Source of the DNA: Rhodopseudomonas pentothenatexigens
GTDB taxonomy: Bacteria > Pseudomonadota > Alphaproteobacteria > Rhizobiales > Xanthobacteraceae
Length of the DNA stretch: 50,834 nt
Reading direction: 5' to 3'
NCBI RefSeq assembly: GCF_900218015.1
Contig: NZ_UFQQ01000031.1
Location: forward strand, 1-50,834
This document shows, in pieces, positions 1-32,290 of the stretch (within the stretch, counting starts at the first letter, position 1; every line of letters begins with the position of its first letter). The notes under the pieces are model-generated. The model ran no database searches. It worked only from the letters and a program-made list of their open reading frames with translations, and was not told where the DNA came from. The position numbers and the translations under genes are program-made.

Positions 1-95
1 TGAACATGGAAGCCAATGTGGCCCCTCTGTCCCAGGGGTCCCGATTGGACGCCGATCACCCCGAAAACGGGGTCCTTATTCCACGCCGATTCACA
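1..95. mobile_element. Terminus of an IS21-type insertion sequence
   Basis: The first 95 bases look like the end of an IS21-family element whose body lies outside the window. Two imperfect copies of a ~25-bp unit occur 34 bp apart; several short terminal repeats of this kind are typical of IS21-family ends. The outer edge reads TGTGAATCGG on the minus strand, ending in the usual TG/CA dinucleotide at base 95. Immediately beyond it the IS3 transposase reading frame loses its family sequence, so this element appears to have inserted into the IS3 element. No istA or istB reading frame is visible here, so the family call rests on the repeats alone. Confidence 0.45.
35..94. repeat. Tandem terminal repeats, two copies
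   Basis: Copy 1 is at 35-59 and copy 2 at 69-94. Both begin GGGGTCC and both contain ACGCCGAT near the end, with a variable six to seven bases between. The 34-bp spacing and position next to a transposon edge fit transposase-binding repeats of an IS21-type end. Confidence 0.5.
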
Positions 96-1047: not shown

Positions 1048-1330
1048 TCAAACCGGCAGCAGCTCATCGCTTGTGATCGTAGACCAAAGCGGGGAGGTGG
1101 ACCCAAGTGAGGGCGCCCGACTCGACTCCTTGTAGAAGGCGCCGTTGCTGTTGAGCACTGGCACGCAGCTGAGATGCGCGTACAGTCCGGGAATCCTAAC
1201 GGCAGCTCCGGCTCGCTTCCGGACGCCTCCAGGGCTGGGGAGGGGCAGGTGAGACAGCCGGCGCAGCAGATCCGAGTCCTTCGAACCACGCCGTCCCGGC
1301 CGCTGCCAGACCTCCTCACACCGTAGGGTG
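1048..1330. other. Intergenic, no convincing gene
   Basis: Lies between the IS3 left end and the 3' end of the P450-peroxidase gene. A 99-codon minus-strand frame from a GTG at 1347 runs across it, but it has no recognisable motif and a Pro/Ser/Arg-rich composition. I see no terminator stem followed by a T-run. Confidence 0.4.
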
Positions 1331-4300
1331 TCATTGGAAGTTGTCACACGCGTGGTTCGTCCGCACCGGTCGGGCGATGAAGCGCAGTGCTTGCAAGCTC
1401 GGAAGGAAGAAATAGCCGCCGCCGACGACCTTCACGAAGTCGGCGTGGACCTTTGCGTGTCCCGAGTCCTGCTGCGGGCGTGCATCAAGTGGAAGCGAGA
1501 ACACTAGGTCGGACGTCGGCAGGATGAAACGGTCATGATCGGTCTTGGCCGAAATGATCGGGTCCGGACAGTTGCGCAAACCGGAGAACGTTCGCGAATT
1601 GGACCAGGTCTGCTGGATGAACTCGAACTGCCTTTCGATGTTCGCATTGAAGCACATGAAGAACGTCCCGGCGTCCTCGCCGTTCGCGGATTGATAGGTT
1701 CGTCCCCGGCGCAGGATCCGATGGCGATTGTTGATCTCCAGCTGAAGCGGGCTACCAGGCCGGAAACTGTCGCGGGGATTGGATTTGCGCACGTGGGACA
1801 CGATCGGGCAGGCGAGCCCCTGAGGGTCGTCCGTGCCATGCCTGAAATCATTGTCCGGCTTCACCGGGGCCAGCAGCTCGAGCGGAACTTCGATCGATGG
1901 AAGAGCCTTGCGCACATTCCGGATCACTTGCCTGATCAGTTCGTCGCTTTGTGCGTCCCAGATCACGCTCATCAAGCCGTCGCCGCTCGGCACCAATTCA
2001 TCGAAAGTCAAAGCGCGGCCTTCCGCGTCGGGGTCATCCAGGATCCTACGCTCCATCATGATCCGCTTCCGAAGCTCGGCGAAAAACACGTATTTGTTTT
2101 GCTGGCTCCGGGACATCATGGGATTGCGCACCAGCGAGCTGCCGTCGCGCCAGCGCCCCATGAGCTTCGCAGCGATCAGTTCTTCGGCCAAGCGGACGTC
2201 GTACGCCGACGAAGATCGCTGAGCCGGATTGACCGTGAGGCCGCCGACGTCCGTCAGGTCGTTCATCGTGACGTTCATGTCCGTCGAGCCGTGGCTGTCC
2301 GCCGAGGTACCGATCTTGCCGCTGATCTCGGCGTGTAGATGATCGGCTGCGAACAGATGGTCGGGAATGCCCGGATTGCGGACTCTCAGCGACGTGGAGA
2401 AATAGCGGTTGCTGACCAGCTTTTCCGCCTGTAGCCGCACATAGCCGTTGAAGGCATCGACATCCTGCTCGAGTTGCCGGATTACCAAGAAACTTCCGTT
2501 GCGGCCGAAATCGCGCAGTTCCGACAGGCCGCTATTGTTGAACTCGGGAAATCGATCCGGAATCGCGTCTTGCAGCGGCGGCAGGTCGTTGTAGTCGTCG
2601 CGGGTCTGGCTGACCGTCGGACTGGGTGGATAGTAGCCGCGCGTATCCTTGTAGCCGAGGAGGAATTCGCCGGGGGCCACCACGTCGTCCGGAGCGAAAT
2701 CGCCCTTGCCGAACTGGCGCGTGCCGCGCATCACGGGCTGTGAGACACTGTCGACGAAGCCGAACGGTTCGCGATGATCGCCCCGCTTGCGCGACATCGA
2801 CATCTTGATGGTTTGCGCGGTCATGCCCGCGGCGGCGAGCATCGTCAATAATTCCTCGTCCTGCTTCTCGAATGCGGCTCTCTGTGCATCGGACTGGACG
2901 GAGCCGTAGTGTAGGACGATGGCGTGGCAAACCTTGGCGTCGTCAGGCGCGTCGCTCCATTGCCAATGGTCGGGCGCGTTGGCGCCGACATCACCCAGGA
3001 TGTTGCTGCGCTTCGCCATGCCGTCGACAAACGGCAGCGGCAGGGTACCGAAGCCCTCGAGTTGATTTCCTTCGGGAAAGCCGAGCGTCCTAAGACCGGC
3101 AGCAGTGAAGGCGATGAAGACGGCGTCTTCGTCGGGACTGTAGTCGCCCAGCGCGAGTGCCGGGCCGTCCGGCCGCACACTGATGGTTTCGGCATTGTAG
3201 GAGGTCTCTGCGATCGTACGGATCCAACCCCTGGCCAGCTCGGGGTCGCCGAATTTGACCAGATGGCCTCGTGCCTGACCCAGCCTGCCGAGTCCGCCGA
3301 ACAGGATCGACTGGACTTGCTCCGACTGGATCGTGTCCCGCGGGCGTGGCGGGGAATGGATGAGATCTTCCCACGCCTGCGCTTCGGCGCTCGTTCTGGC
3401 CCTTGCCAAGCCCTCGCGCACCAAAGCATTGGCGCGGATCTGCTCGGTGGTCAAATGCGGGAAGCGGCTGTACCAGAACAGCGTCTCGACCTGCTGCCGG
3501 CGCACCCATCTCTTGAACCGGTCGCCGTCGCGGGCGCCGTCGAAGTAGAACCAGTTGGTGCGCGGAAAGCCGACGCCATTGTTCCAAGCAGCGGTTTGGC
3601 CCCCATGAACCTTGGTGATAAAGTCTTCGAGATAGCTTTCCCAGCTTCCGTCGTAGTTGCTTTGGAAGATCAGCTTCTGCGTTCCTGGGACGCGAAACCA
3701 TTTGGCATAGTGGATGGTGGCAAAATCGGTGACGAATCCGGGCCTGAACCAGATCCGGACCATCTGCTTGATGATTTGGAGCGACAGCGCCATCGTCAGT
3801 TTGCGGAACGGCCCCGACTTCAACTCGGTCACCGAAGTCAGGTGGTTCTGCACGTAACCGGGGATGTCTTCCGTTGCGAGCAGTCGGCGCATGTGGTCAT
3901 GGGCAGGCGGCAGATCCTCGGGGCGCTCGATGGCCTCGCGGTGCCGAAGCCAGTACAGAAAGGCGATTGCCAGGGTGACGAGACCCAGCGCGGGCGTCAT
4001 CCAGAACACGACGTAGGTGACGGGAATCGTCGCGGCGAAAAGCCACCAGCCAAACAGCGGAACGAGCACCGTGGCGACGATGAAGGCGGCGTAGAGGGCA
4101 ACTAGGTTCGGCGTGGTCACGGCGCGTGCGACGAATTCCTCGAAGCTGAAATCCGTCCATTTCGAGAAGGCGGGCAGGCGGGCGGATGGCCTGACCAGCA
4201 GCGGTGCGAACCTCGTTCCGGCCAGCTGGCGGCGCGCCTCGCGCAACACGTAGCGCCCGCCGTCGCCGTCGATGGCCGCACGCGCGTTTGGGATGTTGCG

Positions 4301-6214
4301 TCCGGTCCGGGCGCTATCGACGATCGACTTGACCTCGTCATACAATCCGTCTTCGTCCGCGATTTGCGCCACCGAGAAGTCTGCGGTCCCGGGAAAATTC
4401 ACGCCGATCGCGCCCCAGGGCCACGTATGCAACTTGATCCGACGCCGCTTCAGCAGGGCCTCCGCCGGCATCGGCGGCTGGCCGGCATCGACATACTTCA
4501 TCAGCGGCTGAAACACCTGGTCGCCGACTTTTTGAACGATTTTCGAAAGGGCGGCCTCCTCGGCGCCATCGACATTGAGCTCCACCAGGAGATGATGTCG
4601 TGGTTCGGTCGCTGTGCCGAGATCGATGACGTTGATGCTGGCGAAATGCACGATCCCGGTTTCCCGGAACGCCCGATCGATACTCGCCGCGCGGGTCGCA
4701 TCGGCCTGGGTGGCACGCGGCCGTTTCGGGTGGCCGAACGATCGTAGCAGGGCTCGCACCTCGTCGATCGGCGCGTTGGCCGCCAACGGCACCGCACAAC
4801 AGATCATCGATTGCCGGCGTTGCCCGGTGTCGGGATCGTAGCGCAGCAGCATGTGGCGCGGGAACGGGCCGGCGCGCATCAGCCTGGGCGACTTCGACGC
4901 GAACCGAATGTTGTTCTGCGCCAACAGGACCTGGAACAGCTCGACGATAATCGCCTTGGCGAGCTCTTCGCCGATGCAGTCGTGTTCGCCGATGCCGAAC
5001 ATCAGGTTGCGTGGTGCCGGCCTGCCGGCGAAGCGCCCGGGGTCGAAATCGTAAGGCCGCGGAAATTTCGCAGCATCCATCAGCGCCGACGCGGTCGCCG
5101 CGATCACCGTCTCGCCCGGCGGGATGCCGGACAGTCGTCCTCCGCCGCCACTATTCAGGGGGCGGCCGGTGCGAACGCGAAACTGGCCGGGAAACAATGC
5201 CGGATTGAACCGGGCCGCTTCGAACAATAGCGCCTGAAGCGCATCGCGCTTGGCCAGATAGTCGGCCGATTGCGGTCCCGCGCTTCTCCGCGCGGCCTCG
5301 GCCTCGCGCGACAAGCGAACCGCATCGCCAAAGACGGAGGGGCGAAACGTCAGTTCTTCCAGGATGTGCCCGGCCGACATGGTGTTGGTGGGGACGAATC
5401 CGGTGATCAGTCCGAACAGCAGGGCCCGGATTTCTCCGCGTCGCGCCGCCGAATCCGCTTTCACTCCGCCGATCTGCTCGGGCTCGGATTTGGCGATGGC
5501 GATCAGCCGGCCCAGGATGGAGTTGTCGGGAGCGCCGAACAGACGGTCGTAATTGCGGTCGATGATGTCGCGCAGCCGTTCGGCTCCATACATCGCCTGA
5601 ATCCGCACCTCGCTTTCGCCGCTTGGGTCCGCGAACAGCAATGCGGTCGTCGACATTGCAAATTCGGCGAATTCGTCCGCGTTCTCGGCGGTCAGGCCGT
5701 ACAGCTTAAGACAGGTTTCGGTCGCGACGCGGGTGAACAGGTCCTTGATGGCGTCGATCTCGCCGCCTGCATCGGCGAGCAGCCACCCTGCGATCTGCCG
5801 GGCTGGTTCGCGGACGTCGCTGTCGAGATCGATCGTCGCCCAAATCTGTTTCATTACGGCCCGTTGGCGGGCATGGAGTTCGCCGTCGTCGCCGAGCGCG
5901 AAGTTGGTGCCCCCGGCGAGCAGCGTCATTTCGAGGCCGAACGGCACGTTAAAAGCATCGGGGTCTCGCAACACCGCCTCAACGTCGTCGTAGCGGACCA
6001 CCCAGTGAATTCCGCGAAACTTGATGATCGGAGGGATGCGACGGAACAGCGGTAGAAGCAGGTATCGCAAGGCGGCTTTGGTCCACCGGGCCGCGAGCTT
6101 GCCGAACCAGCCGGTCGGTGGAATCCGGTCGAGGCCGAAATCGCGTTGAGTGATGTTGGAGCGCTCGGGGTAGGAGAGGATCCTCGCGAAGGAATTGTCG
6201 TACTTCGTATCCAT
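1331..6214 (-). CDS. Cytochrome P450 - DyP-type peroxidase fusion protein
   Basis: A 1627-residue double-haem fusion. Residues ~25-465 are a cytochrome P450: ExxR is FEAAR (E332/R335) and the haem-thiolate loop is FGIGEHDCIG (Cys413). Residues ~466-690 form an alpha/beta region of unknown role, followed by three hydrophobic segments (~704-721, 723-740, 742-757). Residues ~835-935 (SNYDGSWESYLEDF, VGFP) resemble a region found with some DyP proteins. The DyP peroxidase domain spans ~960-1610, with GFVDSVSQP (catalytic Asp1155), the presumed proximal haem His1474 in SHVRKSNPRD and the distal Arg in RILRRGRTY. A longer frame begins at 6409, but ATG 6214 has AGGAGA five nt upstream and avoids overlapping the regulator gene. 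The P450 I-helix reads GFVPT, without the usual acid before Thr. The gene follows the SARP gene by 40 nt, probably one operon. The domains are clear; the substrate is unknown. Confidence 0.9.
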   Translation of the reverse strand: MDTKYDNSFARILSYPERSNITQRDFGLDRIPPTGWFGKLAARWTKAALRYLLLPLFRRIPPIIKFRGIHWVVRYDDVEAVLRDPDAFNVPFGLEMTLLAGGTNFALGDDGELHARQRAVMKQIWATIDLDSDVREPARQIAGWLLADAGGEIDAIKDLFTRVATETCLKLYGLTAENADEFAEFAMSTTALLFADPSGESEVRIQAMYGAERLRDIIDRNYDRLFGAPDNSILGRLIAIAKSEPEQIGGVKADSAARRGEIRALLFGLITGFVPTNTMSAGHILEELTFRPSVFGDAVRLSREAEAARRSAGPQSADYLAKRDALQALLFEAARFNPALFPGQFRVRTGRPLNSGGGGRLSGIPPGETVIAATASALMDAAKFPRPYDFDPGRFAGRPAPRNLMFGIGEHDCIGEELAKAIIVELFQVLLAQNNIRFASKSPRLMRAGPFPRHMLLRYDPDTGQRRQSMICCAVPLAANAPIDEVRALLRSFGHPKRPRATQADATRAASIDRAFRETGIVHFASINVIDLGTATEPRHHLLVELNVDGAEEAALSKIVQKVGDQVFQPLMKYVDAGQPPMPAEALLKRRRIKLHTWPWGAIGVNFPGTADFSVAQIADEDGLYDEVKSIVDSARTGRNIPNARAAIDGDGGRYVLREARRQLAGTRFAPLLVRPSARLPAFSKWTDFSFEEFVARAVTTPNLVALYAAFIVATVLVPLFGWWLFAATIPVTYVVFWMTPALGLVTLAIAFLYWLRHREAIERPEDLPPAHDHMRRLLATEDIPGYVQNHLTSVTELKSGPFRKLTMALSLQIIKQMVRIWFRPGFVTDFATIHYAKWFRVPGTQKLIFQSNYDGSWESYLEDFITKVHGGQTAAWNNGVGFPRTNWFYFDGARDGDRFKRWVRRQQVETLFWYSRFPHLTTEQIRANALVREGLARARTSAEAQAWEDLIHSPPRPRDTIQSEQVQSILFGGLGRLGQARGHLVKFGDPELARGWIRTIAETSYNAETISVRPDGPALALGDYSPDEDAVFIAFTAAGLRTLGFPEGNQLEGFGTLPLPFVDGMAKRSNILGDVGANAPDHWQWSDAPDDAKVCHAIVLHYGSVQSDAQRAAFEKQDEELLTMLAAAGMTAQTIKMSMSRKRGDHREPFGFVDSVSQPVMRGTRQFGKGDFAPDDVVAPGEFLLGYKDTRGYYPPSPTVSQTRDDYNDLPPLQDAIPDRFPEFNNSGLSELRDFGRNGSFLVIRQLEQDVDAFNGYVRLQAEKLVSNRYFSTSLRVRNPGIPDHLFAADHLHAEISGKIGTSADSHGSTDMNVTMNDLTDVGGLTVNPAQRSSSAYDVRLAEELIAAKLMGRWRDGSSLVRNPMMSRSQQNKYVFFAELRKRIMMERRILDDPDAEGRALTFDELVPSGDGLMSVIWDAQSDELIRQVIRNVRKALPSIEVPLELLAPVKPDNDFRHGTDDPQGLACPIVSHVRKSNPRDSFRPGSPLQLEINNRHRILRRGRTYQSANGEDAGTFFMCFNANIERQFEFIQQTWSNSRTFSGLRNCPDPIISAKTDHDRFILPTSDLVFSLPLDARPQQDSGHAKVHADFVKVVGGGYFFLPSLQALRFIARPVRTNHACDNFQ

Positions 6215-6254
6215 ACGATCTCCTGGTGTATCGGTCCGAGCGGGCCACCAAATT

Positions 6255-8084
6255 TCAGGCGTGCATTGTCGTGTCTTGATCCAATCCCAATTGCGCGACG
6301 AAGTAAGCGTTGAGCGCGGGGTCGATGTAGGGGAGCCAGTTGATGTCGTCGGCGCGAAGCTGCGGACGGGCTCTGCGCAGATCCTCCCGCGCTTCGTCGG
6401 CGAGTGCACGACGGTTCAGCGATTTGAGCGACAGGTACTTGATCATGAGGGCGTACCAGTAAGACGGCCGCCGCATGGTGGACTGGGTGGCAAGGTCCAA
6501 TGCGTCCTCGAAATTGCCGAGCAACCAGTGCGCCATTGCCTGTTCACCAAGGAAGAAGAACATCTGCTGATCGTGAGGGCTGAGCTTGATCGCCAGCGCG
6601 AGCGACGGCAGCGAGCGCTCCGGCTCACCACGCAGGATCGCGTTGCTGCCGAGCTGCGCATGGGCGAGCGACAGACTCGGACATAGATGGATGGCGCGAC
6701 GGATGAGGCAATCCGACTCTTCCGATTGACGCAACCATGCCTCGGCGGTCCCGGTGACCCAGTATCCCCGCGCATCGGTCGGGTCGAGCTCGATGATCTG
6801 GCGGCCCAGCGAGCTTGCCGCGCGGATCGCGGGCGCCTCGCTCCGCATCGCCCAGGCGCGCCACAGCGTGCACCAGGCGAAATGTACGCGCGCTTCGACA
6901 TTGCCGGGTTCGATCTGCAGCGCCTGATGGAAGTAGAATTCTGCCCTTTCGGCATCGTGGCGGCTGAGGCGGTTCATGTGCCAGCGGCCCCGCCACACGA
7001 GATCGTTCATCCTGGATACCTCGTCCGGCAGTCGGCGCGCGCGATGTTGCTCGGTCCTTGAGATGTTGCCCCCGAGGTTCCCCGCGATCTCCTCCGCGAT
7101 GCCCGTCAACATGGTCTCGGTGAGAGAGCCGACGATCTCGAACGAGCGGCCCCAGACCAGCAGATTTCCGTCGGTCTGCGTCAACTCGATGTTGATGCGC
7201 ATCGATGCGTCGGCTTTCGGGATCCGGAGTTGAACCACATAGTGCGCGCCGAGCTTGGCGCCAAATTCCGCGGCGCCCGACGTGAGCGTCAGGGCCGCGT
7301 AGCAGGAGCTTCGGGAGATCGTCGCCAGCCAGCGGATGCGCGACAGCTGGTCGATCAATTCCTGTGTCACGCCTTCGATGAGGTAGCACAGGCTCGGATC
7401 ACTTGCGGTATCGTTCGGCGGAAGCACCGCGACAACCGGCGTTCCGATGAAGCCGCCTATCCGACCGACGGCGCCGGCTCCGTCGCGGACGGCGAAGCCT
7501 GGCAACGTGGAATTGGACGATGTGGCATTGGACAGGGCGGACGGAGAGTCGACGCGGCCGGAATGCCTGCGCAACGCCGCCTCGCGCAATCGTTCTTCCC
7601 AATACCGTCGTTGATCTCGAAGCCAGTCATCGAATTCGGGGTCTGCGATGTCGAGGTCTTCGAGAAAGTCGGGCAGGTTGGTTGTAAGATCGAAATCCTC
7701 GGTGCCGTGCTGCTCGAGTCGGCGGGTGTCGATATCGATGTTGTTGATATCAAGTGTCAGGCTCTGCTTGTCGAAAGAGATCAGCGCCCTGTGCGCTCCG
7801 AGTGACCGCCGAAGTTCGCTGAGACACTGGCGCAAACTCGCCGAGCCTTCCTTGTCGCCGCGCTCGCTCCACAATCGCGATTGCAGCCAGCGTCGTCCAC
7901 GCATGCCGTGCGGCGCGACGGCGAGCATCGCCAGGATCGCCCGCGCTCGTCGTCCCTTGGGCGTGCAATCCACTCCGGCGCACTGCAAACGCACCGGTCC
8001 GAGCAGGCTGAGAGAATGGCGCACGGGATTCGCACGATCGTTCCGCTGATACGGCATCGCATCGACGATGTTCGCGTGGGTCAT
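6255..8084 (-). CDS. SARP/BTAD-type transcriptional regulator with TolB-like and TPR domains
   Basis: About 609 residues from ATG 8084 (weak GGA upstream); ATGs at 8156 and 8057 are also possible, and the frame is open back to 8348. The N-terminus is the winged-helix domain of SARP/OmpR-like activators (HSLSLLGPVRLQ, RRARAILAMLA, RLWSERGDKEGSASLRQCLS), followed by a BTAD-like helical segment. Next comes a TolB/CyaA-associated alpha/beta domain (PVVAVLPPND, YLIEGVTQELIDQLSRI, YVVQLRI). The C-terminal half is tetratricopeptide repeats (FYFHQALQIEPGN, IELDPTDARGYW, AIKLSPHDQQ). Such proteins are usually one-component activators of nearby gene clusters. It is read divergently from the giant-protein operon and is co-oriented with the P450-DyP gene, so it is the obvious candidate regulator of both; that is inference from layout. 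Confidence 0.85.
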   Translation of the reverse strand: MTHANIVDAMPYQRNDRANPVRHSLSLLGPVRLQCAGVDCTPKGRRARAILAMLAVAPHGMRGRRWLQSRLWSERGDKEGSASLRQCLSELRRSLGAHRALISFDKQSLTLDINNIDIDTRRLEQHGTEDFDLTTNLPDFLEDLDIADPEFDDWLRDQRRYWEERLREAALRRHSGRVDSPSALSNATSSNSTLPGFAVRDGAGAVGRIGGFIGTPVVAVLPPNDTASDPSLCYLIEGVTQELIDQLSRIRWLATISRSSCYAALTLTSGAAEFGAKLGAHYVVQLRIPKADASMRINIELTQTDGNLLVWGRSFEIVGSLTETMLTGIAEEIAGNLGGNISRTEQHRARRLPDEVSRMNDLVWRGRWHMNRLSRHDAERAEFYFHQALQIEPGNVEARVHFAWCTLWRAWAMRSEAPAIRAASSLGRQIIELDPTDARGYWVTGTAEAWLRQSEESDCLIRRAIHLCPSLSLAHAQLGSNAILRGEPERSLPSLALAIKLSPHDQQMFFFLGEQAMAHWLLGNFEDALDLATQSTMRRPSYWYALMIKYLSLKSLNRRALADEAREDLRRARPQLRADDINWLPYIDPALNAYFVAQLGLDQDTTMHA

Positions 8085-8539
8085 TCCGCGAGTCCAATGG
8101 TGGTAACGGTCGCTCGGCCGAGCGATGTCAATCAAATGGCGAAATGTAGGTAGCATAGAGCGGTAGTTGAATTCGTCGCAAGCTGTTTTCGCTCGTCCAG
8201 CCGGGTCGGCGGCCTGTTTCGCTGCGCGGAACGAGCTTTCGAGGTGCCGTGCTCGAAGCGGTCTGGCGAGATGGGGCGGCGTAGCGTCGGCTCCGGCCGG
8301 CCGCCGCGCTCGCCGTGATCTTTGCACTGCAAAGGTCTGCCGAGCCATCAGCGTTGGTCAGGACCGTGAAGCGCCGTCGGTTTTCACGGCAGATTCACAA
8401 CGATTTCACGCTCGTCTGACGAGCCGGTGATTGGCTGACTGTTGCTACGCGAAGCGATGGTCAGCGGAGTTGGTTCTCCGTCCGGCTAAGTGCCGAAAGC
8501 CGTCCGAGCGTTGTGGTTTGTCAGCGAAAGGACGCTCCG
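8085..8539. promoter_or_regulatory. Divergent control region between regulator and giant-protein operon
   Basis: About 455 bp separate the likely starts of the leftward regulator and the rightward giant-protein gene, and promoters for both directions must lie here. I cannot place -10/-35 elements confidently. Visible structures are a 7-bp perfect inverted repeat at 8410-8424 and repeated TTCAC words just before it (in TTTTCACGG, ATTCACAAC and TTTCACG). Part of this stretch would be coding if the regulator used the upstream start at 8156. Confidence 0.45.
8410..8424. promoter_or_regulatory. Palindrome, candidate operator
   Basis: GCTCGTC-T-GACGAGC is a perfect inverted repeat with a single central base, about 115 nt upstream of the giant-protein start. 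Size and position suit a dimeric regulator site. SARP proteins usually bind direct repeats, so a different regulator is possible. Confidence 0.3.
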
Positions 8540-11500
8540 GTGGACGATTTTCGGGACGAGGGGCAAGAAGCGCAGGCCGAAGCCACGTCGACAGGGGTTG
8601 CTCTGACGCGCCGCGAAATTGTCGTTGGGCTGTCGGCGGCATCGATGCTGGCGACGGAGAGCGCGTCGGCGGAAAGCGACGGCCCGATCGTCCGGCCAGC
8701 GCGATGGTCGCGGGACCCGAGGGTGTTCGGTGTCGAGATCGACTACCTTCCCTATGGTTCCGTCGCCATCTTTCCCGAAGTACTCGGGCCCACGGCGTCC
8801 ACGGAGTTCACGTTCGGTCAGAACGCAGCGGTCTCGGCCTTTGTCTTCAACAAGGTTAGCTTCTCCGACACCGGAACGTTTTCTTTCGGGATCGGCTGGT
8901 CCCGAAAGAACGATTCGTGGCTCGTCGTGGGGCAGTTCGGTAGGTCGAACGAAGCAGGTGCAAGGGCGGAAGCGGACTTCGGCGACTTCATAGCCGGCAA
9001 AGCATCGCTGAAGTTTCGGCTGTCGAATGTGCAGGCTGGCCAAGTCGTACGGGCGTTCTTCGGCCCCGCAGTCGAATTCGATCGGAGCAGCGGCGCGGAA
9101 TTCAGTATCAAGGTGCAGATACACGTGCCGGACGGCCAGCGGCCGCCGTTGCGGCCGGAGATTCGGTTCGCCTATGCGTTGCGACCGCTTGCGGCGTTCG
9201 GACTATGGGCATTCGACGGGCGGCTGCGGATCAATAGCCTCGACATCGGCGTCGTCGAACCTGACGAGGGGGACGGGGCATCGGTCCAAGGCGTGCGGCA
9301 CCGGGATGCACTCAATCATTCGCGGCCTTGGCCTCGTTCGCTGGTCTATCTCGGAGGTGCGAGGGCGGCCGATCTGAAATGGGCGCCTGAGACCGACAAC
9401 AATCCCTATTGGGTCGGAAAGTTGGCTGCGGGCGCAGCGGCGAAAGTGGCGCTGGATGGAGCGTTCGAGCGCTTTTCGGTGCGGCAGTGGGGGCCGGCGC
9501 GCGAAAGTGCGGCCATCCTCAGAGCTCCCTTGGCGGTTACCCTGGTAGGCAGCGATCGTTCCGTTCCTGGGAGCACGTTCTACCTGTCGGAGGCGATCGC
9601 GATCCGCCATCGGATATGGAACGGAACGCGTGAAGAGATCTACGAGAAGATCGGCGGTCGAATCCAGGACAAGCCATTCCAGTTGTCGAGTGCGTATGGA
9701 CCGCTGACCATCGAAGGCGATCCGTCGCCGCCCAAGACGAGGAAAGATGCCGAGGGCAGGGGCGCTTCCGTGGCGAGTCGCGAGGCGCTGCTGGCCTCGG
9801 AAAAGGGATTGACCCAACTCGTCCTCAAGGCACGTGACGATATCATCGAAGAGTTCGACGCGCGCGCCCGACTGCTGCACATTGCGATTCCCCTGGCAGA
9901 CGGTTCGTTCGGGGCGTCCCACTCGGACAAGAATATGGTCTGGAGCCGGCTCGACCTCGCCGGCAGCGAAGTGGCCTTCAGGCTGCCGGTGAAGTCCGCG
10001 TCGAAATCCGAAGCGCCGGCTGCGCGTGGTGTCGTCACCATCTGCGAGGCACCGGCTCCGCTGCCGGCGCTCGACCAGAACTTACCTGTGAGTGCGGCGG
10101 TGGCGCTCGACGGAGCCAAGCTTGCGGTGCGGCGATCGTCCGACAATCTGGCGTTGGAATTTCAGTTCGCACGAATGGCGCTCGAGATCGGCAAGGATGG
10201 CGCGCGGATCGTTCCCAACCTGCGGCTGTCCGGCGCCGGCCAGGGATACGCAGCGGCGGCAGCTCGCGAAACGGCGCGGCGCCTTGATGACCGCCCGTTG
10301 CTGATCGTCAATTTTCCACCACAGCATGTAGCCGAAAGAGCGTACTCCCGGCAGATCAACGACGGAATCGCGTTGCCGGATGCGCCGATGAGCGAAACCG
10401 ATCCGCTGTGTTTCACCAAGAGGCTGTTGGAATGGCGAAATGCCGGCATGGACGTCTCTCTCGAGGTTCGCCGGAAGCTGCGTGATGATCAGGAGGGGGT
10501 GAAGAGCAGTGATAAGTTGAAAGAGGAGTACGACGCCATCCGTGCTCTGCTGGCCAACCCTTCAATTTGGGATGAACGGCTCGGCCTCGACGGCGCTACT
10601 CTCAATACGTTGAGGGATCGGTGGGATCGGCTGCCCGCGGAGCAACGCGACGTATATCTCGGCCCGAATCCACTGGCGATGGACCCCGATGTCAGAGCCG
10701 TGACGCTCGAGATCTGGCGCGCTTACATAAAAAACACGACTACTCCGGCGATCGAAATCGAAAATTTGATCGCACGACTGCCTGACGTCGAGCTTGAGGA
10801 GGCGGTCATCGACGACATCAAGCGCCGGCTGAATGCAAGCAGAGACACGAAGACGACGCCTACTGTGCGCGGCTCGTCGTCTTCCGGCCTGGACCCCAAG
10901 CCTGTCGGCAATGGACCAAATCTCGACAACGAAATCCACAAGGAGAAGATTAGGCGAAGCAGGGACTACAAGGAAACGGTCGCCTGCGCTGCCAAGTTCG
11001 CTGAGAAGCCCGGTATTCCTATTCGCCTTCAGGCTTCGCTGGCGACCTATCGTGGCCGCGAACCCGTTCGCGCCGCGGCTCGGGCCGAGGGCACTGATAG
11101 GGATTTTCTGACCAAACTACGCGCATTCGTGCAATCCGCGATCGATGAGCCGAAAGGCGAAAAGTTCGAGGCGATTACGCAGGCCCGACTGTCCGGCGCG
11201 ACACGGCTGGTTTTCCGGTTCGATACCGCCGACCCGGTGGACGGCAAACGTGCCCGGCGACATATCGACTACTCCATCGACGGCTTGACCGATTGGGGCG
11301 AATTCGATCTGGCGGTCTGTTCGCGCGCCGAGACCGTCGAGAAGCCGGTAGGAAGCCGAATTCCGCATCTGGCTTTCCGGGCCGCCGAAGGCGACGCAGC
11401 CGTCATCTTGAAGCACAAGGGTATCAAACCCGGCCGATCGATCGAGGGTCGGCTGAGGGATATCCGCGAGTCGCTGCGGCCGCCGTCGGACGATGAGACG

Positions 11501-16735: not shown

Positions 16736-19700
16736 CGGATACAGTGGTCAATGCATCGACGCGCGTCGTCGCGGCGGGACTCGTCGAAGGCAGCGAGCGT
16801 CTTCGCCTCACCGTGTCGTTCATGCCGACCCGCGCGAAGGGAGAGGACGGCGTAGCGGGCGTCAATCTTGAATCCTGGCCGAGCGGCATCGAGGGGTTGC
16901 TGTGCGGCCCGAGCGAATCGAGCGCGTTGCACTACTTCGTGGAGCCGATCCCACGCACGTTGCCAGGGAGGCCGGCGGCACCGAGCCGATGCGTCCCCGT
17001 GGCGTTGGCGAGGGCGCGGCCGCAAACGCTCAATGAACTTGGCGCGACGATTGATGATCTGTGGAGGTCGGTTTGCGACCATATGGCGAACGCCATGACC
17101 GACAAGGACCGGTTCTGGCAAGAACTTGGCGAGCTGTTCGATGAAAGCAGCGCCGGCGCCGACAAGTATCACAGACAGGTCGACGGTAAATCGGTCCCCA
17201 ACGTCCTCCCGACCGGGCGCGCGGACAGCGCGATTCTTCATGTGTTGGCGCGCGCGCGCCGAGCGGCGCGTACGGTTGTTGAGGGCGGCGTGCGGACGAC
17301 CATCGATACGGCGTCGACGTCGAAGGTGACACCTTGGCCGGACAAATTCTATCGCTCCGCGGGCAAGGACGCCGCCGAGAAGGAACGTGCCTGTCGGCTG
17401 TCGGACGAAAGGAAGCGGTTGGAGGAGGCCGCCGAAAAGTACGCGGGCGACTGCCGCAAGGCAGCGGCATCGATCGCCGCCAGCAAAGAGGCAAATCTAA
17501 CAACGAGCGGCCGTAGCGCTGCGACGGCCGCTTTGCTGTCGCCCGGGTCGGTCGGAACGTGCGGACCGTCGTGCGAGGATTTGTTCGACGAAGGCAAATA
17601 CGAAAGCCTGCTGGCGCGCGCACGGGCACTGCATCAGGTCGCGATGCTGCCCGACGATACCACGACTGCTCCGAAGGACCGCCCCCCCGGCGCGCTGGCG
17701 CAGGCGGACAACGAGAAGCTGCAAGATCGCTGCCAAATCGATACGACGACCTATCCGGGCCATTTTGCGCGGGTGTTGATGACGCTCGTGAAGTCTTATC
17801 CAGCGCTCGCACGGGTGTTCCGTTTCAGCGTGGATGTCGACATCGACATCGATCCGGCCACCTTGGCGCAGGCGTGGCGGGACGACGACCATGGCAATGA
17901 GGCGGCCTTCCTGATGCTGGCAGCGCGGGTTCCGGCCGGCGACGATACCAAAAGAGTCGAAAAGTGCGTGTCAAAGTGCGTGTTCACGCTCGCCAAACTC
18001 ACCAGACGCAAGAGCGATCAGCAATTCCTGGCGTTTCACCCGGTCACACGGGAGGAAGTCGAATTGCGGCTGGAAGGCTGCACGACCCAGAAAATTCGCG
18101 CCAGCGGCTCGGTGTCGCAGATCGGCGGCGTTGTGGATCTCGGGCAGCGCACCACCAAATCCGCAGGGCCGTTTTGCGGCGACCACGCGCGCTACGAGAT
18201 CATCAACATCGATCCGGTTTTGGCCACCGAAGCCGGTCTGCGCGAGGCACAAAAGCAGCAGAGTGTGGCCGACAACGCGGCTCGCACGGCCACCGAGGTT
18301 GCGAGCGCGCGGAAAGCTTTTGCTCGCGAGATCGAGACCGGGATCGTCAGTCGCGGCATGGTCCTGGTCGATCGCTGGCGCAGCGCGGCGGTGATCGGGG
18401 AGATGACGACGGCGCGGCTGTTCGCGGATGTGAAAACGCCGCTGCGCCTGCTGGATGCGGACGACCTCACCATCGGCTATCGCCTCGACGTGATGGCTCG
18501 CTCGGCCGACGATCGCGCGAACAGATGGCGGAGCCTGATGGACCGGGAGATCGATTATCGCGATCCGCGGCCGGAACGTGACGAAAAGGATCTGTTCGGG
18601 AAGTGTTTCGACGCGCTCGGTCTCAAATACGGCAGCGACCTGCGTCGTGATCTGGACGCCGCGATGATGATGCCGACCGCGCGCCGCCGACTGCTGGCCG
18701 GAGGCCAGCAGATGGTTCATGTCGAAGAGTGTATCGCGGGCTGGGAGGGAGACCCGCTGTCGCTGACTTGCAAGCGGGAGGAGATCGAGGTCAAGCGCGG
18801 AACGGAGATTGCGATCACTCGGCTGTTCGATCTTCCCAGCACGGCGACTGAAGCCACGCGGAAGGCGTGGCCGCTTCGCTACGGCTGGGCGTATCGGTTC
18901 GGCATGAGACCGGTGTGGGTCGGCGGCGTGGCGGTGCCGCTGGAACGGGCGGCTGCCGTTTACGACGCTCGAGGGCCGCTCGGCGACGTGACGATGCCGG
19001 TGACCAGCGGTCGCGACGGTGCCCCGCGGGCCGGCTGGAGGCGCTTCCTCCGGCAGGAAGCCGTTCTGCCTCCGATCGCGCTGTTGCCCAAAGGGATCGC
19101 GGGGGAAACCACGTTCATGTGCCGGCAGTCCGCCGTCACGTGCATTCTGCGCACCAGCGTGATCGAACAGCGCCGCAAGACCGAACAGACTTGGCGCGTT
19201 TTTTTGCCTCCGCAAGTCTCGCTCGACGAAGCGATGCGGCACGGCGTCTTCGACGATATCCGCAACAAGGAGTATCCCGACGGCGCGCTCGCGAACATCG
19301 ATTATGACCAGCCGATTCCAACGCAGCGGTTGTTGAAGAATGGTTTGAGGGCGCCCGAAGGCAAGGAGCCGCCGAGAATTGGTTTCCCGCAATTTGGCCG
19401 TGTTCCGGTTCGCCAGGACGGCAAGGTGGTGTTTCCGGCCAGCGACCAGCCATTGGAGCAGTTGACACCAAGCCATTTCGCGATCGTGTCGCCGGCGGAA
19501 GGGACCGGGCGAGACTCTTCGGACGCGTCGGACGTCTTCGGAGGCGAGCCGGTGTTCCGCATCAAGGCGCGAAGCGGAGTCGCGGAGCGAAAGCGACAAC
19601 AATTTTATCCGGACCCGATGGCGCGCCAGCTCGTCCTGGCGGTTCGTCGCGCCGGCGAGCCGGTCGGCACCGGTTATTTCGAAGGCGCCCCTCGCGTCAT

Positions 19701-22554
19701 CGACCTGTCGGGCAGTCCGTATGAGCAAGTCAAACCGGTCGCGCTCGTCGTCGAGCGGCACACCGACTCCGGCCTCCGCGTGGGGGAACCGAAGCAGGAA
19801 GACTTTTGGGCAGGAAAGGACGAAGACAGATTCATCGGCGACTCGGCCGAGATGAAAGGCGACGGTCCGAAGTGTTTGGTGCGGGTCGCGACGCTCGTTC
19901 TCAAGCCGGGTGAAGCCGTCGAACTCGATGCCTGGTACATTCCGACCGAGGCGCTGCTGCGTGCATATTTCGACCTGCCGGAGACCCTTGCAGTGATCGC
20001 CGCCGCGTCCCGCAATGCGCCCGGCCAAGACATTCTGGCGGCGCTCAACCGGCATCTGACGAGCAAGGAGGAAAAGCCATTCGCTTTCTCGGCTGGAGAA
20101 AAAGCCAAGCTCCGCCAGCAGGCCGCGTGGGTCGGCCACTCTGGAATCACTGTTGATCCGGTGGGCGTCGCCGCGGCCGCCGAGATTTTGTACCGTTTCA
20201 TTTCGCGACGTCCGCTTCCGGAATTGTCGTGTGTTCGCACGTTGTCGCTGTTGCATGCAGTCGACCGACCGCAGCGCGCGCCGAAATTCGCTGGCGACGA
20301 CGCCGTTTCGCGGCTTCGCGCCTACCGATGCAAATCGGATACGCCGGCCCGATTGGAAAAACTGAAACAGATCGCGTCCGAAAAGAATCTTCCGCCTCCC
20401 CATGGGCAGGAAGGGGACGATGGGATCGTCTTCTCCGGCAAGGTTCGCTTCGATCGGGACGGCTGCCGACAGCTCGAACTGGTCGCGCGCTGCATTTCGA
20501 TGGAACGATCGGCGATCGACGATACGCGTCTCGGCCGGACCAACCAGCAACGCCTGACCGGCGAGTGGCCGGAACGCGTCGCGGTCGAACCATCGAAGGA
20601 CGGAGAACATCGACAGGACGGAGCCGCCAAGGAGTTCATCAGCCGCAAGGCGCGCTATCTTTTCGGGTTCGATGTCGACAGCGCGGGCAGGGTTCGGCTG
20701 CCGAAAGAGACCGTGCCGATCCTCCAGATCGAGGATTTGCAGCAGCGGGGTAAGGAGTCGTCGTATCTGGCGGGCCTCGAAACCGTCGATCTTGTCGAAG
20801 CGCAGATCGCTTCGCTGGAGTCGAACAACCGCGAAAAGATGCGAGGTGCGCTGCGGACACTGGCCGGCGATTCGATCGCTGGCCAGTTGGCGCGCAAGAT
20901 GGAAGTGCATTTGCGCGCGGCCAGTCGTTTCGACACCTACTTCCGGCAGGTCGTCCCAACCAAGGAGTCGCCGGTGCCGGAATCGGTCTTTCCGGCCGAC
21001 CCGTACGCGGTCGACAAGATCAAGGTGACGAGCATCGATCCTCGCGGCGCAATCCGGTCCGGCGATCATGCAGACACTGCCCCGAAGCCGGGCTCCGACC
21101 AACTGCAAACGATCTGGATTCCGGCAACTGTCCGTCCGACCAGGCCGAAGGTGCACGCGGCACTGCCGAGCTACACGATCGATTGCGAGACCGACGTCAG
21201 CAAGAACGTGATCGGACAGTCCGGACCGCCGAAGCCGATACGGATCTCGAGTCTCGCGCGCCGATCACAAGTGAGAATTTTCCTGGATCGCCCATGGTTC
21301 TCCTCCGGCGAGGGCGAGCGGCTCGGGCTGGTGCTGTGGCCTCCGCACCTGCTCGAAGTGTCGCAAGATCCGGAAAACCTGCAGGCCGGCAGGGTCCCTC
21401 GGCATGTGCTCTACGAAAATCGACCCGATCTATCGACGGCGATGGATTTGGCGACTTTTGTCGACGAGGATCTGGGGCCCGGCGGCGCCTTCACGACCCG
21501 CTGGGGTGCCGATCCGATCCGGGAGAGTGCCGGCCCCATCGGCCCGTTCCTGACATGGCAGTGCCTGATCGGCGACGCAAAGGGTACGGGGGCCGCGACC
21601 GATGGGGCCGCGCGTCGCGGCCCCGCATCCGGGACGCCGGAGAGTGATTTTGACAGCGATTCTCCGGTCTATGTGCCGAAAGTAGCCATCCCACTGAGGG
21701 ATCCGCGCGAGCAGAAATCCGGAGAGAGAGCCGACGCTGCCGCCATCGAACCAACCATGACGGCGGCACTGCTGACCTATGTGCCGCGCTTCGACGTCGA
21801 GACGGAGAAGTGGTTCGTTGACGTCGAGCTGAAACCGGATCGGATGGTCGAACCTTTCGTGCGTTTTGGACTCGTGCGCTTCCAACCGAATGCCGACCCT
21901 CGCGTGCAGGTCTCGGCGCCCGTCACAGTCTGGGCGCAGCTCTATCCCAGACGCGACCTGCAGGTGTGGAAGGAAGGCCGTAACCTGGAAGTGCAGGTCT
22001 CGGGGTATTCCGCGCAAAGGGCATCAGGCAGTCTCCGCGGAAACCGCACGCAGGGGCTCATGCGTATTTCAGTGCTGGAACTGTCGAAGTCGGCGTCGGG
22101 GCACGCTGTCGAGACTGTCGCTCCTATGGTCGACGGTAACGTCCGAAAGGCGGCGGTTCGTCTGGTGGAGCGCGACGCCAAGCCGGCGCCATACTTCGCT
22201 GCCGTCGGCGATGCCACTTGGCGCGCCGCCTTCGCCCTCGCCACCGGCCCCGAAGCCCCCAGCAGGCTCGCGGTCGTGGTCGAAGAACTCGATGAGTACG
22301 CCTCGACAGAGGACGAGGATGCCGCCCCGCCGCCGCCCGCGCCTGAGCAAAAGGCGAAGCCGGAGCCCCAGCGAGGGCTCGAGCCTCCGGTCGGAGTGAC
22401 GAACGGCGGGCGGGCTCCGACATCGAATGCCCAGCAGAACAGACTGGCGCTGGAGCCGATCGTGGCCGCCGGCCAGCCGGCTCCGCCCGGCGTCGTCCGC
22501 AGTGGTCCGAGGTTCCTCGCGCGCGTCGAATACGAAAACCTGTCGTCGCCGTAA
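16732..22554 (+). CDS. Giant protein of unknown function (1940 aa)
   Basis: I do not recognise this protein. It starts at ATG 16732, overlapping the stop of the upstream giant gene by 4 nt (ATGA), which suggests translational coupling; an in-frame ATG at 16720 is the alternative. No signal peptide or membrane helix is evident. A short charged coiled coil lies near residues 213-250 (ERKRLEEAAEKYAGDCRKAA). Cysteines occur in loose pairs (KCVSKCVF, GTCGPSC, RCQID), possibly structural or metal-binding. The central and C-terminal thirds are beta-rich (for example RISVLELSKSASGHAVE). The last ~85 residues are a Pro/Ala/Glu-rich, probably disordered tail. Because it is coupled to an exported partner but lacks its own leader, it may act as a cytoplasmic or piggy-backed partner; this is inference. 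Confidence 0.8.
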   Translation: MTDTVVNASTRVVAAGLVEGSERLRLTVSFMPTRAKGEDGVAGVNLESWPSGIEGLLCGPSESSALHYFVEPIPRTLPGRPAAPSRCVPVALARARPQTLNELGATIDDLWRSVCDHMANAMTDKDRFWQELGELFDESSAGADKYHRQVDGKSVPNVLPTGRADSAILHVLARARRAARTVVEGGVRTTIDTASTSKVTPWPDKFYRSAGKDAAEKERACRLSDERKRLEEAAEKYAGDCRKAAASIAASKEANLTTSGRSAATAALLSPGSVGTCGPSCEDLFDEGKYESLLARARALHQVAMLPDDTTTAPKDRPPGALAQADNEKLQDRCQIDTTTYPGHFARVLMTLVKSYPALARVFRFSVDVDIDIDPATLAQAWRDDDHGNEAAFLMLAARVPAGDDTKRVEKCVSKCVFTLAKLTRRKSDQQFLAFHPVTREEVELRLEGCTTQKIRASGSVSQIGGVVDLGQRTTKSAGPFCGDHARYEIINIDPVLATEAGLREAQKQQSVADNAARTATEVASARKAFAREIETGIVSRGMVLVDRWRSAAVIGEMTTARLFADVKTPLRLLDADDLTIGYRLDVMARSADDRANRWRSLMDREIDYRDPRPERDEKDLFGKCFDALGLKYGSDLRRDLDAAMMMPTARRRLLAGGQQMVHVEECIAGWEGDPLSLTCKREEIEVKRGTEIAITRLFDLPSTATEATRKAWPLRYGWAYRFGMRPVWVGGVAVPLERAAAVYDARGPLGDVTMPVTSGRDGAPRAGWRRFLRQEAVLPPIALLPKGIAGETTFMCRQSAVTCILRTSVIEQRRKTEQTWRVFLPPQVSLDEAMRHGVFDDIRNKEYPDGALANIDYDQPIPTQRLLKNGLRAPEGKEPPRIGFPQFGRVPVRQDGKVVFPASDQPLEQLTPSHFAIVSPAEGTGRDSSDASDVFGGEPVFRIKARSGVAERKRQQFYPDPMARQLVLAVRRAGEPVGTGYFEGAPRVIDLSGSPYEQVKPVALVVERHTDSGLRVGEPKQEDFWAGKDEDRFIGDSAEMKGDGPKCLVRVATLVLKPGEAVELDAWYIPTEALLRAYFDLPETLAVIAAASRNAPGQDILAALNRHLTSKEEKPFAFSAGEKAKLRQQAAWVGHSGITVDPVGVAAAAEILYRFISRRPLPELSCVRTLSLLHAVDRPQRAPKFAGDDAVSRLRAYRCKSDTPARLEKLKQIASEKNLPPPHGQEGDDGIVFSGKVRFDRDGCRQLELVARCISMERSAIDDTRLGRTNQQRLTGEWPERVAVEPSKDGEHRQDGAAKEFISRKARYLFGFDVDSAGRVRLPKETVPILQIEDLQQRGKESSYLAGLETVDLVEAQIASLESNNREKMRGALRTLAGDSIAGQLARKMEVHLRAASRFDTYFRQVVPTKESPVPESVFPADPYAVDKIKVTSIDPRGAIRSGDHADTAPKPGSDQLQTIWIPATVRPTRPKVHAALPSYTIDCETDVSKNVIGQSGPPKPIRISSLARRSQVRIFLDRPWFSSGEGERLGLVLWPPHLLEVSQDPENLQAGRVPRHVLYENRPDLSTAMDLATFVDEDLGPGGAFTTRWGADPIRESAGPIGPFLTWQCLIGDAKGTGAATDGAARRGPASGTPESDFDSDSPVYVPKVAIPLRDPREQKSGERADAAAIEPTMTAALLTYVPRFDVETEKWFVDVELKPDRMVEPFVRFGLVRFQPNADPRVQVSAPVTVWAQLYPRRDLQVWKEGRNLEVQVSGYSAQRASGSLRGNRTQGLMRISVLELSKSASGHAVETVAPMVDGNVRKAAVRLVERDAKPAPYFAAVGDATWRAAFALATGPEAPSRLAVVVEELDEYASTEDEDAAPPPPAPEQKAKPEPQRGLEPPVGVTNGGRAPTSNAQQNRLALEPIVAAGQPAPPGVVRSGPRFLARVEYENLSSP

Positions 22555-22594
22555 ACACCGATCAGTCCGCCTTCGGGAACGGAGAGGTCCGAAA

Positions 22595-23164
22595 ATGCGC
22601 TGTTCGTACTACGCTTTGGTGCTGTGCCTCGTGACATCGGTGGCAAGCGCCGAATCGATCAAGATCCTCCACAAGGTCGATCCCATTGCCCAGCCCTCAC
22701 CGATGTCGTGCTGGGCGGCGGCGGCGACGATGTTGAAGAACTGGCGTTCGCCGGTGCCTTCGACGATCGCGGCGCTGGTCAAGGTGGCCGGGCCGAGATT
22801 CGAGCAAATCTACGGAAGCAGTTTTCCGCCGACAAACTCTGGAATTCCTCCCGCTGACGAGGCCGAATTCTACCGGGCCATCGGCCTCGTCGTCGTTCGC
22901 GGACTCAATCCGACCATTGCCAAATGGGCCGAGCTGTTGCGCACGAAGGGGCCTCTGTCGATCACGGTCGACGCCACGCCTTCCCAGGGATTCATACACG
23001 CCCTCGTCGTCGCGGGATTGGACGGCGACGGCACGCCCGGCGCGACGATCGTCAACTACATCGACCCGGCGGACGGCAAAAAGCACGACGTGGTCTTCCG
23101 GGAGTTTCTCAAGCTTTACGAAGGCTCGGCCAATTGGCCGTTGCAGATCATGCACAACCCCTAA
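22595..23164 (+). CDS. Secreted papain-like cysteine protease (AvrRpt2/C70-like)
   Basis: A 189-residue precursor with a classical Sec signal peptide (residues 1-19, cleavage after ASA). The mature part matches the compact papain-fold layout: catalytic Cys39 in PMSCWAAAATML, His135 in GFIHALVVAGLD and Asp158 in NYIDPADGK, with Q33 as the likely oxyanion-hole residue. Cys-His and His-Asp spacings resemble the AvrRpt2 (C70) and C39-like peptidases. ATG 22595 is chosen because GGAGAGG lies seven nt upstream and the signal peptide begins there, although the frame is open further back. It lies 40 nt after the second giant gene, so probably in the same operon. Possible roles are maturation of the giant proteins or attack on an external target. 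The exact family is uncertain. Confidence 0.8.
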   Translation: MRCSYYALVLCLVTSVASAESIKILHKVDPIAQPSPMSCWAAAATMLKNWRSPVPSTIAALVKVAGPRFEQIYGSSFPPTNSGIPPADEAEFYRAIGLVVVRGLNPTIAKWAELLRTKGPLSITVDATPSQGFIHALVVAGLDGDGTPGATIVNYIDPADGKKHDVVFREFLKLYEGSANWPLQIMHNP

Positions 23165-23229
23165 ACCGAAACCGCGCGCCACGGGCGGCAATGTCGCAAC
23201 GACTGTCACGTTCATCAGAGGAGGAAGTC

Positions 23230-23499
23230 ATGTCGGTTCATCTCAGGATCACCAATGTCAAAATCGAGGGCGAGTGGATCTCCGGCGTCGTAACGGTGGA
23301 AATCACCGAGATCGGATTAAACTTGTCAACGCCATTCAGAACGAAAAAGGACGTCGAGCAGACGATCGATCTCGGCAGCGGCATCAAGCTGGTCGGGGTC
23401 TTGACGCTGGAGGCTCCCAACAACGTCTGTTTTGCCGGGGAAGTGAAGAAGCCGCCTTTCTCGTACGACTTTCCGAAACAGTGTTTTCCGATCGGCTAG
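23230..23499 (+). CDS. Small conserved-looking protein, unknown function (89 aa)
   Basis: It begins at ATG 23230 behind a strong GGAGGAAG ribosome site (23220-23227). The 89 residues suggest a small beta-sandwich (HLRITNVKIEGEWISGVVTV, LGSGIKLVGVLTLEA) with two cysteines in the C-terminal third that could form a disulphide. There is no signal peptide and no recognisable family. It follows the protease gene by 65 nt and probably belongs to the same operon; a protease inhibitor or accessory protein is possible but unsupported. Confidence 0.6.
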   Translation: MSVHLRITNVKIEGEWISGVVTVEITEIGLNLSTPFRTKKDVEQTIDLGSGIKLVGVLTLEAPNNVCFAGEVKKPPFSYDFPKQCFPIG

Positions 23500-23566
23500 C
23501 CCGATTCGGTGTTCGATATTCCGACGATGGGACGTGGTCGTCCGAGGTGTCAGAGGTGACCGTTCT

Positions 23567-23819
23567 ATGCGTCGATCATCCTATTGGTTGAGAGTAACCA
23601 TTCTGCTGGCGGCGAAATCCATCGCCGCAGGCGAGTGCCCGGCAAGCCACGATTTGGCTGGTTGATGTCGACGGAAGAGTCTCGGCCGACCCATTTGCAG
23701 CCGTCTTGAGGTGGCTCGACGAAAATCACAATGAATTCGCCCGATCCGATTTGGATATCAGGATGGTCCGTCGGCGGTACACCGATCGATCGATGTTGTC
23801 GAACCACGGCAGGAGATGA
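23567..23819 (+). pseudogene. Frameshifted small secreted protein gene
   Basis: Two overlapping frames read as one small exported protein broken by a single frameshift. Frame A begins at ATG 23567 behind AGAGGTG with a plausible signal peptide (YWLRVTILLAAKSIAAGECP) and stops at 23665. Frame B takes over near 23650 and encodes a soluble-looking domain (IWLVDVDGRVSADPFAAVLR, then WLDENHNEFARSDLDI), ending at TGA 23817-23819, just before the next gene. Frame B has no start codon of its own near its beginning. The total of 253 nt leaves one extra or missing base. It could be a recent mutation, a sequencing error or programmed frameshifting; I see no obvious slippery heptamer. Confidence 0.45.
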
Positions 23820-23821
23820 CG

Positions 23822-24343
23822 ATGTGCGGCAAATACTTCTGTTCAGTCGTGCTGCTGGTGATGCTGGTCGCTGGCAAGGCGTGGGCACAGACCGATACGT
23901 GTGCGGTGCGTTGCCCGAATTTTGCTCCCCTCTACAATAGCGACACGTTCATGTGTCAGGAGCGGGGGGTCGAACCGATCGCTTTGGAGAACATCATCAT
24001 CGGCGGGATCAACAGCATTCCGAAGGTGGTCAAGTATTTGTTCGGGTCCTTGAAACGCGAGATCGAACAGAACAAGCGACGCCAGGGGCGACCAGACTGC
24101 AACCATTCCGCGTCGTATTATCCCCAGTTCAAACCCGATCTGTTCGGGAAGGCTGTGTGTGCGTCTCAGTACAAACTCTTCAAGGAGTGGGCGGTCGACG
24201 ATAAGCCGTACAACTTCAAGCGTCGCGATATTCAGTTTACCGTCTGGTGCATCGGCACGTACGGAGTTGCCATCGGCGATGGGGATTTCCCCCTGCAGCG
24301 CTGGAAGCAGAAGCTCAATACGGTATCGTTGCCCGACGGTTGA
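23822..24343 (+). CDS. Small secreted cysteine-rich protein, unknown function
   Basis: About 173 residues from ATG 23822, chosen because AGGAG (23811-23815) sits six nt upstream; the ATG at 23816 directly abuts that site. The N-terminus is a clear signal peptide (YFCSVVLLVMLVAGKAWA, cleavage before QTD). The mature protein has about seven cysteines (TCAVRC, FMCQERG, PDCNHS, AVCAS, VWCIG), enough for several disulphides, and a helical middle (KVVKYLFGSLKREIEQNKRR). I do not recognise a family. It is the last gene of the giant-protein operon, directly after the frameshifted gene, and fits a set of small proteins working outside the cytoplasm. Confidence 0.65.
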   Translation: MCGKYFCSVVLLVMLVAGKAWAQTDTCAVRCPNFAPLYNSDTFMCQERGVEPIALENIIIGGINSIPKVVKYLFGSLKREIEQNKRRQGRPDCNHSASYYPQFKPDLFGKAVCASQYKLFKEWAVDDKPYNFKRRDIQFTVWCIGTYGVAIGDGDFPLQRWKQKLNTVSLPDG

Positions 24344-25400: not shown

Positions 25401-25541
25401 ACATCAAACGTCCGACCCGATCCAGTACTCACATGACCCGGATCAGAATTTCGAACAGTAAGCTCTTCAGCGGTAGACGTTGATTTATCGCACGAGATGA
25501 ACGAACCTCGGTGTACAACCTGTCTGAGGGAATGCATCACG

Positions 25542-32232: not shown

Positions 32233-32290
32233 ACGATTTTGGACCGCAGAGTCGCGTCGTCTGCTGGGATGCAGATGTGATTGGTGCTAA

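Follow-up and report, generated by a model that had tools for sequence, protein, structure and literature searches.

A Coupled Pair of Giant Genes and Its Changing Lytic Neighbours in Rhodopseudomonas pentothenatexigens

Introduction

A stretch of 50,834 bp from Rhodopseudomonas pentothenatexigens (contig NZ_UFQQ01000031.1; hereafter the window) carries two adjacent giant genes, here called G1 and G2, between a divergent regulator gene with a haem enzyme fusion on one side and a small protease gene on the other. The question raised by this locus is which of these genes belong together, and what proteins of the size of G1 and G2 might do. According to the original prediction, regulator, fusion, giants and protease constitute one co-regulated locus in which a giant protein is exported and the protease serves maturation. 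The gene content was checked, the components were traced separately through plasmids and genomes, and the genes adjoining the giant pair were compared between loci.

Results and Discussion

Gene content of the window

The regulator, the fusion, the two giants and a protease with a signal peptide were all found as predicted. On the minus strand, the P450-DyP peroxidase fusion (1331..6214; 1627 aa) was recognised by Pfam (p450, E 6.7e-10; Dyp_perox_C, E 4.1e-7) and matched NCBIfam TIGR01413 with E 6.3e-19 and 68 bits, below the cut-off of 100.5; its start is likely to be the ATG at 6214 and not the GTG at 6409. Two central transmembrane segments were noted by eye. Directly upstream on the same strand lies a 697-aa regulator (6255..8348) in which Pfam detected C-terminal TPRs only; it is labelled SARP-type because its homologue in Novosphingobium is so annotated. 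A divergent intergenic region of 164 bp (8349..8512) separates it from G1 (8513..16735, plus strand; 2740 aa), a protein with homologues in 42 loci. G2 (16732..22554, plus strand) encodes about 1940 aa.

Downstream of G2 on the plus strand follow a Peptidase C70 (AvrRpt2-like papain fold) with a signal peptide (22595..23164; Pfam PF12385, E 8.1e-22), an 89-aa ORF (23230..23499) with no obvious signal peptide and no Pfam match, and a 175-aa protein (23816..24343) with a signal peptide by eye and no match in plasmids. Three small genes, two of them with signal peptides, had been expected beyond the protease; two were found, and the only signal peptide among them is that of the 175-aa protein, which is possibly an inhibitor or immunity protein or a second cargo. 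An IS3-type insertion element is situated at the left edge (window 56-1066) and is 82-84% identical to Bradyrhizobium plasmid copies among the matches listed.

The regulator and the fusion form a separate module

Nine plasmid records contained the fusion at a coverage of at least 80%. In eight (seven from Sulfitobacter, one from Novosphingobium) the gene directly upstream, in the same orientation, is the SARP-type regulator; in the ninth, from Pararhizobium, it is replaced by a cyclase-type gene, the C-terminal half of which matches the regulator. G1 was found in none of the nine, and none of them is among the 14 G1-bearing plasmid records. Conversely, when ten window proteins were searched by tblastn against 43 loci (42 G1 loci and one Sulfitobacter locus chosen for its fusion), the fusion was present only in the Sulfitobacter locus and thus in 0/42 other G1 loci. 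Since the fusion occurs without G1 and G1 without the fusion, the genes fall into two modules, regulator with fusion and the giant pair. The first of these, a two-gene module, is conserved on plasmids of Sulfitobacter and Novosphingobium and, with a regulator of cyclase type, of Pararhizobium.

The notion of a single system made up of regulator, fusion, giants and protease has in its favour the divergent arrangement around the shared 164-bp region, and in loci L005, on plasmid pC of Sinorhizobium meliloti LMB1, and L025 a SARP-like gene likewise lies upstream of G1 in divergent orientation. It is nevertheless very improbable, as the fusion is missing from every other G1 locus and eight of the nine fusion records have the regulator without G1; the co-occurrence that it had led one to expect in other genomes did not appear in either direction. 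The window resembles a SARP-regulated cluster in having a SARP-type gene divergently upstream of G1, and differs from one in that this gene goes with the fusion in other genomes. Plasmids of rhizobia frequently carry relatives of the regulator, 565 plasmid records giving a match. Shared control across the divergent region is conceivable, as L005 and L025 also carry such an upstream gene; the regulator and the fusion are neighbours of the giant pair and no part of it.

G1 and G2 are inherited as a pair

The giants have dozens of homologues, many more than chance ORFs would have. Relatives of G1 were collected from 14 plasmid records and 35 loci on genome contigs; five of the plasmid relatives, with giant-size genes, were studied, and four of these five are on plasmids typed as conjugative. 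G2 adjoins G1 in 39/42 G1 loci, of which 38 were identified by tblastn and one (L044) by clustering of ORFs; of the other three, L011 is a degraded fragment, and L013 and L046 lie at contig ends. In the window the ATG of G2 at 16732 overlaps the TGA of G1 by four bases. A candidate G2 start falls at -12 to +3 bases from the G1 stop in 29/40 loci; the overlap is one base in 6 and four bases in 17 (together 23/40), and eight bases in a further 2/40. The two genes look translationally coupled. Pairwise distances of the G1 and G2 cores run in parallel over 34 loci (Pearson 0.93, Spearman 0.80), which partner proteins would be expected to show, although common descent by itself also raises the correlation. 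Their products probably form one complex.

Profile searches confirmed more distant pairs: two in Streptomyces (973+1326 aa, with a 4-base gene overlap, and 1102+1075 aa) and one in Diaphorobacter (1422+1650 aa), all three with the same two-gene layout, and one in Rhizobium in which G1 is split into two pieces. The pair is thereby seen in four phyla (Pseudomonadota, Acidobacteriota, Armatimonadota and Actinomycetota), with a total length of about 2200-5500 aa across the family. In the G1-core tree an Acidobacterium clusters with Burkholderiales-type rows and a Mesorhizobium with Roseobacteraceae, and between one copy on a Rhizobium plasmid and one from Mesorhizobium the identity reaches 97%; these placements and this identity point to horizontal transfer of the pair. 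It is also rare, with 5/397 genomes of the order, 5/398 of a phylum sample and 2/385 of a class sample, counts that include the own genome each time and come from overlapping samples. Judged by its sequences, G1-G2 is a real, tightly coupled and mobile pair. The overlapping giant genes described in the original prediction are confirmed as a coupled pair, and one that lacks a family assignment.

Export signal and domains of the giants

The N terminus of G1 shows a Tat-type signal (residues 32-54; 8606..8674, plus strand) composed of TRREIV, a hydrophobic stretch and an AxA-like site. The corresponding motif, [ST]RRx followed by two hydrophobic residues, starts 37/46 G1 ORFs, the window included, and 1.8% of shuffles; Tat and Sec signals were told apart by this motif alone. 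It is absent from the G1 proteins of L010 and G885 and from three of the four distant ones as annotated (S. xanthophaeus, Diaphorobacter and R. ruizarguesonis TP23). G1 very probably bears an export signal, in agreement with the exported giant that had been proposed; in G2 no signal peptide was seen. At about 300 kDa, a folded substrate would be exceptional for Tat.

The conserved core of G1 comprises residues 885-1625 (11165..13387, plus strand). The C-terminal domain of G1 (residues 2472-2680; 15926..16552, plus strand) consists of amphipathic beta strands and is predicted to resemble a membrane beta-barrel, the matches including EspP, NalP, BrkA and intimin; a tail of 60 aa follows the barrel-like part. 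This domain and the C-terminal part of G2 are conserved family-wide, and the Streptomyces homologues keep the former despite lacking an outer membrane.

G1 and G2 of the window gave no Pfam, NCBIfam or PDB-sequence match above cut-offs. Neither 36 G2 cores and five distant proteins nor 35 G1 C-terminal domains had a Pfam or NCBIfam match above a curated cut-off (for the last set, four families with one member each, best E 0.005). As no tested family matches, the pair is classed as new, with a putative function.

Three kinds of known system were compared with it. Autotransporters and other type V systems are similar in that G1 is large, apparently exported and ends in a predicted membrane-beta-barrel-like domain. 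They differ in that the signal of G1 is of Tat and not of Sec type, in the second giant partner and the tail behind the barrel-like part, and in the occurrence of G1 homologues in Streptomyces, where there is no outer membrane. Polymorphic toxin systems (CDI, Rhs and others) offer a second comparison: here too a large conserved component stands beside exchanged lytic enzymes, and an accessory domain is common to two different hydrolases. Unlike in those systems, the lytic activities near G1-G2 are separate genes and the giants end in conserved C-termini instead of a variable toxin domain; no cognate immunity gene was recognised beside them. On the features examined, membership in either group was rejected (no Sec signal; conserved C-termini). 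The effectors of type VI secretion systems and extracellular contractile injection systems include proteases, muramidase and amidase, classes similar to those of the enzymes next to the pair; the giant pair, however, amounts to only two conserved genes, and no sheath, tube or spike genes were among the Pfam families listed within 2.5 kb of it (25 of 51 and 25 of 91).

Genes adjoining the pair

Neighbours were compared over 42 loci after removal of duplicates by using same-strand ORFs of 90-449 aa within 2.5 kb, with ORFs and signal peptides called by simple rules that failed to pick up the two small genes of the window itself. Signal-peptide-like starts were found in 27/67 ORFs downstream of G2 vs 9/68 upstream of G1 (Fisher p 0.0004), and in 6/51 and 8/37 ORFs of the opposite strand. 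The secreted genes anticipated downstream are thus reflected across the family, at about three times the upstream frequency. No cognate immunity pair was seen among the small proteins with such starts, which are frequent near the pair.

Hydrolases above the Pfam cut-off occur within 2.5 kb downstream in 9/42 loci, always as separate genes. The proteases are C70 in the window, M35 in L006 and L025, M10 in L017 and trypsin-like enzymes in L021 and G668; the wall hydrolases are lysozyme in L014 and, fused to M23, in G668, YkuD in L042 and Amidase_6 in L018. G668 thus has its lysozyme-M23 fusion and its trypsin-like protease in one locus. No recognised hydrolase lies downstream in 33/42 loci. Known upstream hydrolases are M10 (L016) and phospholipase C (L006), and the contrast of 9/42 downstream vs 2/41 upstream (p 0.048) is weak, as these very loci had suggested the idea; it is drawn from the Pfam families listed (25 of 51 downstream, 25 of 91 upstream). 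One of five later-found loci (G668) clearly fits the pattern. The lysozyme, YkuD and CHAP-like neighbours have no obvious signal peptide.

Stronger evidence than this count is the recurrence of families near distant G1s: M35, c9, c2, c6 and c24 reappear beside G1 proteins with cores only 28-39% identical. M35 is common to L006 and L025 (cores 35% identical), c9 to L019 and L024/L027 (38-39%; in L027 it lies 5 kb upstream) and c2 to L020 and L028/L036 (33-34%). Family c9 is possibly a cysteine protease; no Pfam family indicating one was found in it. Besides, c2, c6, c24 and M10 switch side or orientation between loci, M10 being upstream in L016 and downstream in L017 at a core identity of 76%. 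Close relatives also exchange enzymes: at 71-73% core identity, L014 has a lysozyme, L018 an amidase and L015 neither, and L012, the nearest relative of the window (53%), is without C70. An accessory domain is common to the L014 lysozyme and the L042 YkuD protein, which are unrelated hydrolases (phmmer E 1.7e-5; 0/300 shuffles). The C70 protease, the 89-aa and the 175-aa proteins had no homologues in the 43 other loci by tblastn. With C70 absent from these 43 loci and unrelated hydrolases in its place elsewhere, the role in maturation assigned to this protease finds no support.

Further observations concern single neighbours. The M35 protease recurs together with a membrane protein, c20, with several hydrophobic segments by eye (L006 26695-29253 and L025 21944-25413; hosts Ruegeria and Mesorhizobium); the two are possibly an effector and its protector. 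Family c2, a 270-aa protein that begins like a secreted one and matches no Pfam family above cut-off, stands beside the pair in L020, L028, L036 and L039 (and in the near-duplicate L040), once divergently upstream, and may be a third component. RHS repeats were seen in one upstream ORF, probably the 1776-aa ORF of L021 (419-5749), an RTX-repeat protein upstream of G1 in genome G288 (L065 4820-7051), and a patatin-like phospholipase gene after the divergent giant pair of Rhizobium ruizarguesonis TP23 (L075 17978-19509).

If only G1-G2 were a unit, the secreted hydrolases would be chance neighbours in gene-rich accessory regions. The small share of loci with a recognised hydrolase, the marginal p value and the transposases, resolvases and plasmid genes that are also found nearby fit such an explanation; the downstream excess of signal-peptide-like starts and the five recurring small families speak against it, and it appears unlikely.

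Alternatively, G1-G2 might serve the producing cell as a scaffold at its surface or envelope (an adhesin, a layer or a lipid-handling bridge), the hydrolases remodelling that cell's own wall or freeing the giant protein, with no part played by a target cell. This would suit the Tat signal, the predicted barrel-like amphipathic domain of G1 and the wall hydrolases and proteases that adjoin the pair in some loci. Most loci, however, are without a recognised wall hydrolase, and the swapping of unrelated enzyme classes between close relatives is more readily understood as a change of cargo than as a fixed assembly step, which makes the scaffold rather unlikely.

Defence-island context

The window runs into a dense defence island (25497-38827) with PDC-M01A/B (PtuAB-like), SIR2-APAZ with short pAgo, PDC-S73 and Gabija GajA/GajB. 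Its GC content is about 50-56% vs 61-64% for the giants. DpdE-H genes (7-deazapurine DNA modification) adjoin the giant pair in L004 (26677-34363), as does a DpdA-like gene in L024 (23288-24403).

An anti-phage or anti-plasmid device would be at home in such surroundings, and the patchy occurrence and mobility of the pair would agree with it. Competition genes, however, also occur in defence islands; Pfam and NCBIfam searches of G1 and G2 gave no sign of a nuclease, NADase or sensor domain, and the export signal of G1 and several extracellular-type hydrolase neighbours point elsewhere. A role in defence is accordingly considered quite improbable.

Proposed function

The reading that we favour, tentatively and at somewhat less than an even chance, is that of a mobile, Tat-exported G1-G2 carrier or scaffold for interchangeable lytic enzymes used against other cells. 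As its Tat signal suggests, G1 would pass through the inner membrane in folded form, perhaps taking G2 along, and its barrel-like C-terminal domain would become embedded in a membrane or act on one. From the coupling of the two genes and the exchange of their neighbours we infer that a G1-G2 complex may carry the small lytic enzymes encoded nearby, the proposed cargo being the C70 protease in the window and, elsewhere, M35, M10 and trypsin-like proteases, lysozyme, an L,D-transpeptidase-like enzyme and amidase; the enzymes so carried would act against other cells. Against this reading speak the 33/42 loci with no recognised hydrolase downstream, the G1 proteins that have no Tat motif, the size of G1 for a Tat substrate, the presence of the C-terminal domain in Streptomyces, and the lysozyme, YkuD and CHAP-like neighbours in which no signal peptide is obvious. 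A bolder version, in which a new two-component delivery system, carried across phyla by plasmids and other routes of transfer, exports a folded complex of about 500 kDa through Tat, inserts into or crosses membranes by means of the barrel-like domain and brings interchangeable lytic enzymes to competitors, is doubtful.

Conclusion

The separation of the giants from the SARP and P450-DyP module corrects a grouping that the arrangement of the window made tempting. What is left is a conserved pair, seen in four phyla and apparently transferred in recent times, that belongs to no assigned family and is hence a sizeable blank in annotation. If Tat export of G1 holds true, the protein would rank as an exceptionally large cargo of Tat and directly test the size limits of this pathway; if the adjacent enzymes are its cargo, the pair would represent a new system of delivery or antagonism for which candidate effectors are already listed.
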